60,861 nucleotides of DNA from Candidatus Cloacimonadota bacterium. GTDB lineage: Bacteria > Cloacimonadota > Cloacimonadia > Cloacimonadales > Cloacimonadaceae. The DNA lies in assembly GCA_017994635.1 (NCBI GenBank), contig JAGOKK010000002.1, forward strand, positions 1 to 60,861, written 5' to 3'. Each line of letters opens with the position of its first letter. Position 1 is the first letter of the stretch. Made by a program: the position numbers and the translations under genes. The notes under the pieces are model-generated. The model had not been told where the DNA came from and did not search any database. It saw only the letters and a list, made by a program, of their open reading frames with translations. Shown in pieces: positions 1,434 to 50,369 of this stretch.

Positions 1434-4388
1434 TCATTTCATCAGGATCGCCTTGGCTACGCCTTGCCTGTTCCCGCTTCTGAGGCGTAAGAAGTAGATT
1501 CCTGAGGCAACAGCATTCCCGCGTTGATCCCGACCATCCCATGTGACAATGTGGTCACCTTTGAGCATGTCCTGATAGAGTAGAGTACGCACCTTCTGCC
1601 CTTTCAGATTGAATATATCGAGTATTGTTTGTGCCGATTCACTGAGATTAAAACTAATACGCGAGCTTGGATTGAAGGGATTGGGAGATACTCTTACAGG
1701 GATTGTTAACGGTTTTGTTCTTGATCGTGAACGTAGAATTTGAGAACTATAGGCGATTTCCGTCAGGTACGTAGTGATAGACTTAGCATCATCCTGGCTC
1801 CGGGACTGCATCCAATAGTAGTTGTTGGGACCAGGAATCTGTTGCAGATCTGCACAGCTTTGCCATGGGGTCCATTCGATCAGCCCCACGTTGTCAAACC
1901 AGGCAGCGGCCGATTCACCGTTTCCTGAAAAGCTGAGCTTCATATCCCAATACCATGCATCAGGGGGAAGTAGCATGTCCCTGGAGAAAAAGGTCCAATC
2001 GGTATTGCCAGTTAAACCAGTAGTTACATCCACAGAATAGACCGGACTGTAAGAGGTGCGCATCGTGTAGAATGAAACTGAAATATTGGCAGAAGTAGCG
2101 CTTCTGGTTTTGATCCAGCCGTGGAGGGTGTAACGCTTGGTGTTGTCGTATAGTTTCATCTTATCTGGCAACGTGCTGGTGCTTGATCCTCCGTTTGAGC
2201 TGAGGCGAGCGCAACGTTGTCCGTCAAAGGCTTCCGGCAGGTCTTCCCCGATGTTCCACGAGCTGGAGCCTTCATCCTCAAAATTCCCATACCAAAGTAG
2301 TTCTGCACCAAATGAATGCTCAGATTGTATTGTGGGCTCAACCAAGTTTATACTTGCTACACTGCCCAAACGGGGCAACTTCACAGGAACAGTGTATTGA
2401 TAATCTTCATCATGGGAAACGAAGTTTTGCGTGGTGCTCCATTGATTCGGTACCTGATGGAAATCCTCGGGATTGCTTACCACATGTGCAATTAGCGATT
2501 CCTTATCAACAGCCAAAGCAGTTCCTAGTTCTGTAGATTTCATGGCCAGGTAATCCAGAATATACAGGCCCAATTGCCCCGTGGCTGGCTTGGGGATGTA
2601 TTCGTCGATATACACTGGACGAACTCGATAGTTTCTGAAGCCATCTGGATAGGCATCGGCATAAAAAATCATGGATGGCATGCATTCAGGGTAATTGAGA
2701 TCAAAAGCGAAATTTCCCAGTGAGTGGGCAATCACTTTGCCGTTATATAGCTCTATGCCCTGGATGATATGCGGATGATGAACGATCACCATATCCGCCC
2801 CACTGTCGATAGCACTATGGCGTATATCCAGATCCCATTGATGTGGAATATCGCTGCGCAGGCTGTAATCCTCATCTTCTGTGTCGCCTAAAAAAGGGTT
2901 GAGATCCTTGTCATAACCGGATCCTGGAGCGATGGAATACTCGCTACCTCCATGCATCTCCACAATCCTCAGATCGGCAATGCCTTCTACAGTGGATAGC
3001 TGCTCTGCCACATAATGAGGTGTCATATAGGCAAATCCTGGTTTGTTGAAACCTGCCTGCAGAAATGGCTGCGCGTTGTTGTATTGACCGGTGCGGTCGC
3101 TGGAGCGCAACAACGCCACATTGATTCCTTTGCGGTTTATGAATGCCGGTAGATAAGCGTTGTAGGAATCCTCAGCTGCTCCACTGTAGATGATGCCAGC
3201 GGTGGTTAAATTGCCCTGCATCTGCTGCAAGGCACTCAATCCGTAGTCCATTGTATGGTTATTCGCCAGACTCACCACATCGATGCCGGCAAAGCTTAAC
3301 CCGCTCACGTTGGCAGGATTGCCCCTGTACACTACCGATTTAGTGGGATGCGGACTGCCAATATTGGAGAGTACAACTTCGAGATTGGCCACGCTGATAT
3401 CCGCGCCATCGCCGAGCATGGGCAGGGTAGGCGAAAAGATCGCATTCACACCCAGAGTGGGAATGATACCTCCATACTGCTCATAACGTCTTGCGAGCAT
3501 CACATCGCCAACGAAGTTCATGGTTAGAGGCAAGGAGGACGGCCCTTCATCCAGCACTACCGAAGTGGAGGCATAACCCCAGCAATTGTCATTGTCCATC
3601 ACGCTTAGTGATACCGTATAGTCGTGAGCATCCGTGATAGAGTAATTGTGGCTGGGATTTGGCAGATTACTGCTCTCGCCATCCCCAAAAGACCAATGAT
3701 ACGTCCAGTCTTCACTATCTGTATCATCGATCACTGCCTCAAATTGTACCGTCACGTCACGATCATTGCGCCAGGCGGGAGGGCCCTGCATGATGCTAAC
3801 CATAGGAGCCACTGGCAGATCATCACTAATGTCAAGAATGCTATCAAAACGCAGGCTGCGATTGCTAACGCCATCAAGATCGTTGATATATACGATGGAG
3901 ATGAGAGTCGGACTGTAGTCAAAGAAAGCATTCCAATCTGCGCCAACGGGCAGGTTATACAGGTTCCAGACATTGGAGGGAAATGCTCCTTGATATACAG
4001 GAACCCACACTTCAATATCCAGGGTACGAGTTCCGGAAAAGCTATAGAAAAGCGTGTGCGTACTATCAGAAAAGGCGATGCCTTGAGCTTTAGCGCCTGA
4101 AGTATACATGGCAGCCAGACTGATCACAGCGTTCTCTCCTAACGCAAGCGGTGAGATCTGCTGCTCTTTCCAGGTGTTGCCATCCAGACGAAGAGAGTAT
4201 GCTGAACCTTCGTAGGTTACGCTGGCATCCAGCGCCCAGGCATTTGGATCGATATCTTCAGTGCCCCATGAACTTAGATTCACCACCCCGCTCTCGAAGT
4301 CTTCGATTACCGAATAGCGATCTGCGCAGTAAGCTTCGGTCAAGCCCAGCATCATAAAAAGAACAATGGCAAGGTTCAAACGTGGCAT
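1434..4388 (-). CDS. secreted CapA-family (PGA_cap) phosphoesterase-like protein with PKD and C-terminal sorting domain
   Basis: A 984-aa secreted protein starting at ATG 4388, with GGGGAGG 6-7 nt upstream. Visible parts in order: signal peptide (1-22); a beta-sandwich, carbohydrate-binding-like region (about 25-190); a PKD domain (about 195-280, WSFGDGESS); a CapA/PGA_cap metallophosphatase-like domain (about 287-575), with the family motifs NFVGDVMLAR, VANLEVVL, SLANNHTMDYG and VIVHHPHIIQG; a second beta-sandwich region (about 690-850); and a FlgD Ig-like tail (about 895-984) with SPNPFNPSSRISFNL and GIYFLRL. CapA proteins are linked to poly-gamma-glutamate capsule export, and the fold is that of calcineurin-type phosphoesterases. 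The tail resembles sorting domains of FCB surface proteins. Inference: a surface or exported hydrolase; the substrate is unknown. Confidence 0.87.
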   Translation of the reverse strand: MPRLNLAIVLFMMLGLTEAYCADRYSVIEDFESGVVNLSSWGTEDIDPNAWALDASVTYEGSAYSLRLDGNTWKEQQISPLALGENAVISLAAMYTSGAKAQGIAFSDSTHTLFYSFSGTRTLDIEVWVPVYQGAFPSNVWNLYNLPVGADWNAFFDYSPTLISIVYINDLDGVSNRSLRFDSILDISDDLPVAPMVSIMQGPPAWRNDRDVTVQFEAVIDDTDSEDWTYHWSFGDGESSNLPNPSHNYSITDAHDYTVSLSVMDNDNCWGYASTSVVLDEGPSSLPLTMNFVGDVMLARRYEQYGGIIPTLGVNAIFSPTLPMLGDGADISVANLEVVLSNIGSPHPTKSVVYRGNPANVSGLSFAGIDVVSLANNHTMDYGLSALQQMQGNLTTAGIIYSGAAEDSYNAYLPAFINRKGINVALLRSSDRTGQYNNAQPFLQAGFNKPGFAYMTPHYVAEQLSTVEGIADLRIVEMHGGSEYSIAPGSGYDKDLNPFLGDTEDEDYSLRSDIPHQWDLDIRHSAIDSGADMVIVHHPHIIQGIELYNGKVIAHSLGNFAFDLNYPECMPSMIFYADAYPDGFRNYRVRPVYIDEYIPKPATGQLGLYILDYLAMKSTELGTALAVDKESLIAHVVSNPEDFHQVPNQWSTTQNFVSHDEDYQYTVPVKLPRLGSVASINLVEPTIQSEHSFGAELLWYGNFEDEGSSSWNIGEDLPEAFDGQRCARLSSNGGSSTSTLPDKMKLYDNTKRYTLHGWIKTRSATSANISVSFYTMRTSYSPVYSVDVTTGLTGNTDWTFFSRDMLLPPDAWYWDMKLSFSGNGESAAAWFDNVGLIEWTPWQSCADLQQIPGPNNYYWMQSRSQDDAKSITTYLTEIAYSSQILRSRSRTKPLTIPVRVSPNPFNPSSRISFNLSESAQTILDIFNLKGQKVRTLLYQDMLKGDHIVTWDGRDQRGNAVASGIYFLRLRSGNRQGVAKAILMK

Positions 4389-17554: not shown

Positions 17555-17689
17555 GGTTATTACTCCTAATAATGTTTTTTCTTTCCATGCAAATAAATGC
17601 GCGCTTTTTGTAAAGCCATTTTTTCTATGGATTATGTCACAAGCTTCAATCTGAGGGATAACTAAGCCTACCTAACCCCTGGAGATCAT

Positions 17690-17761
17690 CCCAAGCACAT
17701 CCCAAACACAACCCAAGCCTGGCTCAGGATGTGTTTGGGATGTGCTTTGAAAGAACTCGGT
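17690..17761. repeat. 11-nt-phased inverted box array, copy 1
   Basis: Six-base boxes start exactly every 11 nt: CCCAAG 17690, CCCAAA 17701, CCCAAG 17712, CTCAGG 17723, TTTGGG 17734, CTTTGA 17745 and CTCGGT 17756. The left arm 17693-17710 and right arm 17730-17747 are a perfect 18-bp inverted repeat with a 19-nt loop. No T-run follows. It lies about 135 bp upstream of the GcvT-family start and 370 bp upstream of nqrB. Confidence 0.75.
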
Positions 17762-18068
17762 CTAGCAGTCAGTACCATAAGAGCAGATTGTGTCTTCTAC
17801 ATGGGATCAAACACGATATGATTCCACGCAACCAACGCATTTCCCGGTGATTATTACATGTTTTCTGAGGTCATCTGGTGTACACGAAACGGTGAATAAT
17901 CAGTATTAACTCCCTCTAGCCCGCCCGAATAGTAACAATTTGTACACATCAGTGATGTTATGGATGATAATGCTTTTATCATCTCACATCAAACATTGTT
18001 TTACGTATCCGTAAAATGATTGGCTTTCATATAAATGCCACTATTATATGCTAATAGGCACTTTCCTG

Positions 18069-35983: not shown

Positions 35984-36102
35984 GATCTACCTCGATTATT
36001 TCGTTTATCTTCAATCTCACAGTCCCCCGATTCTGTCAAGCAGATTGTGGTCTTTTTATAAAGACTTTCATGCCTTTTAGCTACAATCTTGCCCCTTGCC
36101 AT

Positions 36103-36185
36103 CCTGGACTCAACCCAAACTCTTCTTGAACGCCTCCTGAACCGGGTTTGGGAAGAGTTCAGGAGGCCTTCTGGTTCGGCTCAGG
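36103..36185. repeat. 11-nt-phased inverted box array, copy 2
   Basis: Eight boxes at exact 11-nt steps: CCTGGA 36103, CCCAAA 36114, CTTGAA 36125, CCTGAA 36136, TTTGGG 36147, TTCAGG 36158, TTCTGG 36169 and CTCAGG 36180. The left half is C-start/A-end and the right half T-start/G-end. TTTGGG complements CCCAAA, and GTTCAGGAGGC complements GCCTCCTGAAC (36132-36142). It lies upstream of the GNAT gene and beyond the M42 gene terminator. Confidence 0.75.
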
Positions 36186-36198
36186 CTACAAGGGGGAA

Positions 36199-36228
36199 AG
36201 TAGAAAGGGCTGCCTTTTAAGGCAGCCC
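36199..36228 (-). terminator. rho-independent terminator of M42 peptidase gene
   Basis: GGGCTGCC (36221-36228 read on minus), loop TTAAAA and GGCAGCCC (36207-36214) make a perfect 8-bp stem followed by TTTCTACTTTC. It lies 35 bp past the M42 stop. Confidence 0.75.
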
Positions 36229-50031: not shown

Positions 50032-50209
50032 AGGTTTTACTCCTTGGACAAGCTCTAGTTTCTATGGTACACCTATTTTCAGCTCATAATAATTGTCAAC
50101 TACAATGTGGCACACATATTCCCCCCTTTTTCAGACCAGCCTGTTTGTCGGCTTCCAACCATCGTGAATTACCCATATGCAGGCCATCTGCCTTCCAGGC
50201 AACTAACTT

Positions 50210-50281
50210 CTCAGATACACTCCAAGCTCATCTCAAACACATCCCAAGCCCGATTCGGGAGGCCCATGAGATGCTCTTTGA
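50210..50281. repeat. 11-nt-phased inverted box array, copy 3
   Basis: Boxes at exact 11-nt steps: CTCAGA 50210, TCCAAG 50221, CTCAAA 50232, CCCAAG 50243, TTCGGG 50254, CATGAG 50265 and CTTTGA 50276. The order and the switch of polarity after the CCCAAG box match copy 1 (CCCAAG, CCCAAA, CCCAAG, then the inverse set, ending CTTTGA). Long perfect arms are lacking, so the phase is better kept than the pairing. Confidence 0.7.
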
Positions 50282-50369
50282 TAATGCAGCAAGCATAAGG
50301 TAGAGAGAGAGGTCAATCTACGCCCACGAAGTAGTGAATGCACTGCAATGTTGCAGCCTTCCGTATTTC

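Follow-up and report, generated by a model that had tools for sequence, protein, structure and literature searches.

Between the divergent genes for a GcvT-domain protein (- strand) and NQR2/RnfD (+ strand) lies an intergenic array of hexamer boxes, a setting that the original prediction had described correctly. The window, by which we mean the whole stretch of 60,861 nucleotides analyzed here, contains two further arrays, one flanked by M42 peptidase and GNAT genes and the other by divergent epimerase and rubrerythrin-like genes. Coordinates of the three corresponding elements, which fall into classes A and B, are listed in Table 1; element 2 has the termini CCCCCT...AAGGGG on its own strand. 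Within the window, self-matching at a lag of 11 nt is highest at array 1 (35/55) and second highest at 36108 (30/55), in the array that had been predicted to recur at 36103. The other proposed recurrence, at 50210, is real but weaker. When lags 5-30 (26 lags) were compared, a self-match of at least 32/55 was reached with lag 11 only. Seven boxes had initially been counted in array 1, and six of them hold (17690-17745), while the one at 17756 (CTCGGT) is weak. The perfect 18-bp inverted repeat was found as it had been described.

Table 1. Positions in the window of the three elements and of the internal features of element 1
Feature	Position	Strand	Remarks
Element 1, whole, class A	17663..17777	-	oriented by family alignment; model R2, E=1.6e-21
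Boxes of element 1	17690 CCCAAG, 17701 CCCAAA, 17712 CCCAAG, 17723 CTCAGG, 17734 TTTGGG, 17745 CTTTGA		
Perfect 18-bp inverted repeat of element 1, left arm	17693..17710	+	
Perfect 18-bp inverted repeat of element 1, right arm	17730..17747	+	
Element 2, class B	36087..36201	-	model R1, E=1.1e-21
Element 3, class A, decayed	50194..50308	-	model R2, E=1.7e-19

Copy number, layout and register

Two profile models identified 112-113 distinct elements, about 1 per 19 kb, in the window's own genome (G000), a Cloacimonadota draft of 2.12 Mb in 149 contigs that is 92% complete. A class-B two-box pattern, CYYGAACNCNWCYYGAACNC, gave 167 matches in this genome with at most one mismatch allowed, versus 1 for the reversed pattern, and the class-A pattern CYYAARCNCATCYYAARCNC gave 65 versus 12 for the reversed control. 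The further phased copies by which the original prediction was to be checked are therefore present, and the arrays of the window are three members of a previously undescribed palindromic repeat family of about 112 copies. The arrays have no match in Rfam, and no account of such repeats in Cloacimonadota was found in the open-access literature, which agrees with the earlier remark that no repeat family of this type was known. The arrays had also been called non-coding, rightly so: no reading frame is open across all copies, the best reaching 79% (class B), and a coding role was rejected on that basis. Contigs G029 C53 and JAKQNZ010000011.1, which belong to other bins, contain elements with immediate flanks matching those in G000 itself; they are probably misbinned and were excluded as independent evidence. 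A second repeat of about 150 bp is located near several elements (L155:2173-2412, with homologues at L145, L080, L141, L096, L097 and L115). It was rejected as a part of the elements, being a separate and unrelated family.

The array extends beyond the part first outlined, as a whole element measures about 105-115 bp and is composed of ten YYYRRR hexamers with a period of exactly 11 nt, five in each arm, with the arms inverted about a 5-nt centre. In centred alignments the hexamers occupy positions ±3-8, 14-19, 25-30, 36-41 and 47-52, and sequence similarity between copies ends at about ±57. A model of 7-mer boxes with a 4-nt centre was rejected; 6-mers with a 5-nt centre fit. Left boxes read CYYRAR and right boxes YTYRRG, both of which are versions of YYYRRR. 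The central switch of polarity noted earlier thus applies to the flanking letters and spacer, but not to the hexamer, a purine/pyrimidine code common to both arms. The outermost hexamers are similar to terminal inverted repeats, CCCYCT/AGRGGG in class B and a weaker CTRCCT/AGGCAG-like pair in class A, and the terminal inverted repeats in the related genome G063 are CTTGCT/AGCAAG.

Spacing is the constrained feature of the elements. Copies differ from each other by 34-40% on average in pairwise comparison, yet 176 of the 179 outer arms that could be scored retain the exact register, bearing out the emphasis that the original prediction had placed on 11-nt spacing as the mark of a phased family. 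A MAFFT alignment of 44 class-B sequences contains zero gaps. Because the element search demanded just two neighbouring boxes in register, this conservation is not purely due to ascertainment. Variable positions within class-B boxes change mostly by transitions; transversions prevail at three of the five positions of the class-B spacer, and 91-98% of units have A or T as the final base of the spacer.

Arm pairing and gene context

The initial description had allowed for an RNA structure, and hairpins transcribed as terminators, mRNA stabilisers or RNase III sites would relate the 11-nt step to one turn of A-form RNA. Arrays 1 and 2 do fold far better than shuffled sequences (z -5.7 and -3.7, respectively), and class-A elements in codirectional gaps take the gene-sense orientation in 12 of 17 cases. 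However, array 3 folds no better than its shuffles, and a terminator needs no exact 11-nt spacing. Gaps holding elements occur in every gene orientation, with 30 codirectional, 25 divergent and 14 convergent (n=69; simple ORF calls), and a terminator role was rejected because of this mixed context. Pairing of the arms in class B of G000 was 72.6% with the element's own partner arm versus 73.4% with shuffled partners, and in class A 69.5% versus 68.5%, with 15 of 500 shuffles as high. Four other species (G014, G022, G027 and G063) likewise gave no excess over partner-shuffled arms. Covariation of paired positions, the sign of a conserved structured RNA and a check suggested at the outset, was accordingly absent between the arms in all five species. 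Because the arms lack compensatory pairing, compensation does not maintain the dispersed elements as RNA stem-loops, and RNA structure was rejected for aged copies. The RNA reading is weakened both by this and by the gene orientations, and we regard it as very improbable. With no excess of own-partner pairing, the palindrome is thus maintained through the unit consensus. The initial description had alternatively proposed a protein binding one face of the DNA, and such a putative reader of the helix is possible.

Relatives, mobility and comparison with known repeats

A letter-blind pattern, (YYYRRR N5)x4 YYYRRR, has matches in 16 of 125 Cloacimonadota genomes. G000 alone gave 87 matches versus 0 with the reversed control, which produced 4 matches across 3 other genomes. 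Dispersed elements are built from the unit CCCGGG-AACTA in G014, CCTGGG-GTCCW in G022 and G027, and CCCGAA-TGCCA in G063, and many of these elements carry in-phase ends. Genera g1, g4, g5 and g10 keep the geometry with differing letters; the sequence classes are private to species or genera, and they have one geometry in common. Some low-count matches (G012, G056 and G078) are not clearly laid out as inverted arms and may instead be tandem repeats with no relation to the family. The identical layout with different letters among relatives suggests that it is the helical spacing that is preserved and not the precise sequence. Interspersed palindromes in bacteria are generally identified from their sequence and hairpin. 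In this case the letters turn over between genera while the phase of 11 bp and the arrangement of purines and pyrimidines are retained, so that sequence-based repeat finders would miss such families.

Near-identical copies are found in unrelated flanks (e.g. L071 and L115, 96.5% over 143 bp), and between the epimerase and rubrerythrin-like genes, where array 3 lies in G000, no array is present in G005, G007, G008 and G011. Together these observations indicate REPIN/MITE-like non-autonomous mobile elements, and mobility is well supported; a mobile palindromic repeat had not been among the readings offered in the original prediction. In G011 the M42 peptidase gene has a decayed array next to it, at the site that array 2 occupies in G000, and this is more in keeping with retention or a hotspot than with a new insertion. 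An array of 11-nt step located upstream of nqrB in G010 likewise fits retention or hotspots. Neutral products of replication template switching, that is, palindromes with slipped 11-mers arising and decaying without function or a dedicated mobiliser, would agree with letters that differ freely between species and with old copies lacking compensation. We hold such an origin to be as improbable as RNA hairpins, since a process of copying and selection is needed to explain why indels are nearly absent, the ends are conserved and over 100 related copies lie at unrelated sites. We favor, at a probability of roughly 0.58, the reading that the elements are REPIN/MITE-like repeats of Cloacimonadota, palindromic, mobile and non-autonomous, with a body made of an array of 11-bp units. 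Under such a scheme we infer that young elements would be almost perfectly palindromic, would fold when the DNA is single-stranded and would be moved by a Y1 HUH transposase, the best candidate being an IS200-like subclass 1.2 TnpA, while the exact phasing would reflect a protein reading the stem or duplex one helical turn after another.

ERIC-type repeats are about 110-130 bp long. The elements are comparable in size and, like BIMEs, ERIC-type repeats and MITEs, are intergenic imperfect palindromes, but we know of no 11-bp periodic body in any of these groups. Terminal inverted repeats of the kind found in MITEs are present in class B, in weaker form in class A, and in G063. Unlike MITEs, BIMEs and ERIC-type repeats, the elements showed no target-site duplication at the boundaries tested, and no related full-length parent transposon was found in the loci examined around matches. 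Similarities to the REPIN/REP-RAYT (TnpA_REP) system are more extensive in that REPINs are likewise dispersed, intergenic, palindromic, about 70-110 bp in size and present in many copies, with Y1 HUH transposase genes near the palindromes, here in sister genomes (PMC3116915, PMC6006769). A hairpin-capable palindromic pair in many intergenic copies is thus shared with REP/REPIN. However, the elements contain ten phased boxes and not two short REPs, the Y1 subclass is a different one, and the elements of G000 are evenly spaced whereas a random distribution has been described for REPIN doublets. REPINs also show compensatory changes (PMC3116915), and such hairpin-keeping changes are absent from the Cloacimonadota elements. 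Even when the most favourable offset close to the palindrome foot was taken, the GT[AG]G tetranucleotide of the REP foot was found in only 9 of 106 class-B arms and 5 of 82 class-A arms. Because this foot and the compensatory changes are lacking, the elements are not REP members and are best filed as working like REPIN/MITE. An 11-bp repeat unit is also known from parC of plasmid R1, where it is bound by an adaptor, typically a ribbon-helix-helix protein (PMC9426499); parC, however, is a direct-repeat plasmid centromere, whereas here inverted arms are found at about 112 chromosomal sites. The elements are bacterial interspersed palindromes of a previously undescribed, 11-bp phased form.

Even spacing and a candidate mobiliser

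Same-contig intervals between distinct elements in G000 (n=34) range from 6.95 to 25.3 kb, with none below 6.9 kb. A single interval below 7 kb was observed versus about 15 expected by random placement, the coefficient of variation was 0.34 versus 0.83, and so few short intervals were obtained in 0 of 20,000 simulations. A 35th interval (138 bp, C149) was left out, as it reflects a partial second match close to an element at the end of a contig. Elements of either class share in the even spacing, which raises the question of target immunity or chromosome organisation; in this fragmented assembly it could be explained by target immunity, by selection against nearby repeats or by a host role. 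Chromosome-organising sites, forming about every 14 kb a multi-site platform for a putative DNA-wrapping or array-forming protein (gyrase-like, or ParR-like ribbon-helix-helix with one box per turn), would account for these intervals, and the indel-free 11-bp phasing and transition-biased class-B boxes suggest a reader of the duplex. However, even spacing is absent in the sister species G014 and G027, where about a dozen elements each are unevenly placed, and because of this a general housekeeping role is impossible. Even spacing would also arise from target immunity or from selection against repeats that lie close together, and the metagenome-assembled genome is fragmented. As such, we consider an organising role unlikely, and mobile repeats of the REPIN/MITE kind are the reading that we retain.

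Transposase genes matching PF01797 were found in 18 of the 24 genomes examined. Many of the encoded proteins, including that of the window's own genome, are TnpA_Y1 subclass 1.2 by their Y motif (Y---Q--HH), and this subclass is low in copy number in the Cloacimonadota genomes. No REP partner is listed for TnpA_Y1 subclass 1.2 (PMC6006769), so that 11-nt arrays would be a first candidate, and a testable one. Of 15 subclass-1.2 loci, 6 have a palindromic or tandem 11-nt array no more than 1 kb away, versus 1 of 11 class-2 loci. Lag-11 arrays were found at 7 of 30 Y1 loci versus 1 of 36 control loci (Fisher p 0.014), an association that may be inflated, should 11-nt arrays also be common away from Y1 genes in G019, G023, G033 and G035; these four and G014 are the genomes with arrays near Y1 genes. 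In G014, TATAC-type arrays are present at 4 Y1 loci and at 0 of 11 other loci examined. Other Cloacimonadota genera have perfect hairpins of about 43 bp made of 11-mers (TACGGA/TCCGTA) near TnpA-Y1 genes (L304:1288-1370 and L310:548-640), as well as a shorter one (L317:220-290). The units of Y1-adjacent arrays are mostly unlike the dispersed YYYRRR ones. Additionally, Y1 genes are also present where a genome lacks YYYRRR arrays, and arrays are found in G004 and G011, neither of which has a Y1 match. Subclass 1.2 TnpA-Y1 is therefore a tentative mobiliser, with no solid link for the window species and no array beside the single TnpA-Y1 gene of G000 (C16). A wider proposal would be a repeat superfamily set by a helical-phase grammar (YYYRRR per 11 bp, inverted arms), mobilised by TnpA_Y1 subclass 1.2 and evenly distributed in one species. 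We view this as doubtful, if somewhat less so than an organising role; were it true, it would imply a new class of DNA-phase-reading element.

Two further repeats were noted around these transposase genes. In G033, a long tandem array of direct 11-nt repeats (ATTGAGCAAGG-like; L303:1059-1290) is located upstream of a TnpA gene of subclass 1.2, and the only TnpA-Y1 gene of G000 is flanked by GC-rich hairpin-like repeats (GCCCCTTCGGGGC) at L336:2600-3150 and 3590-3808.
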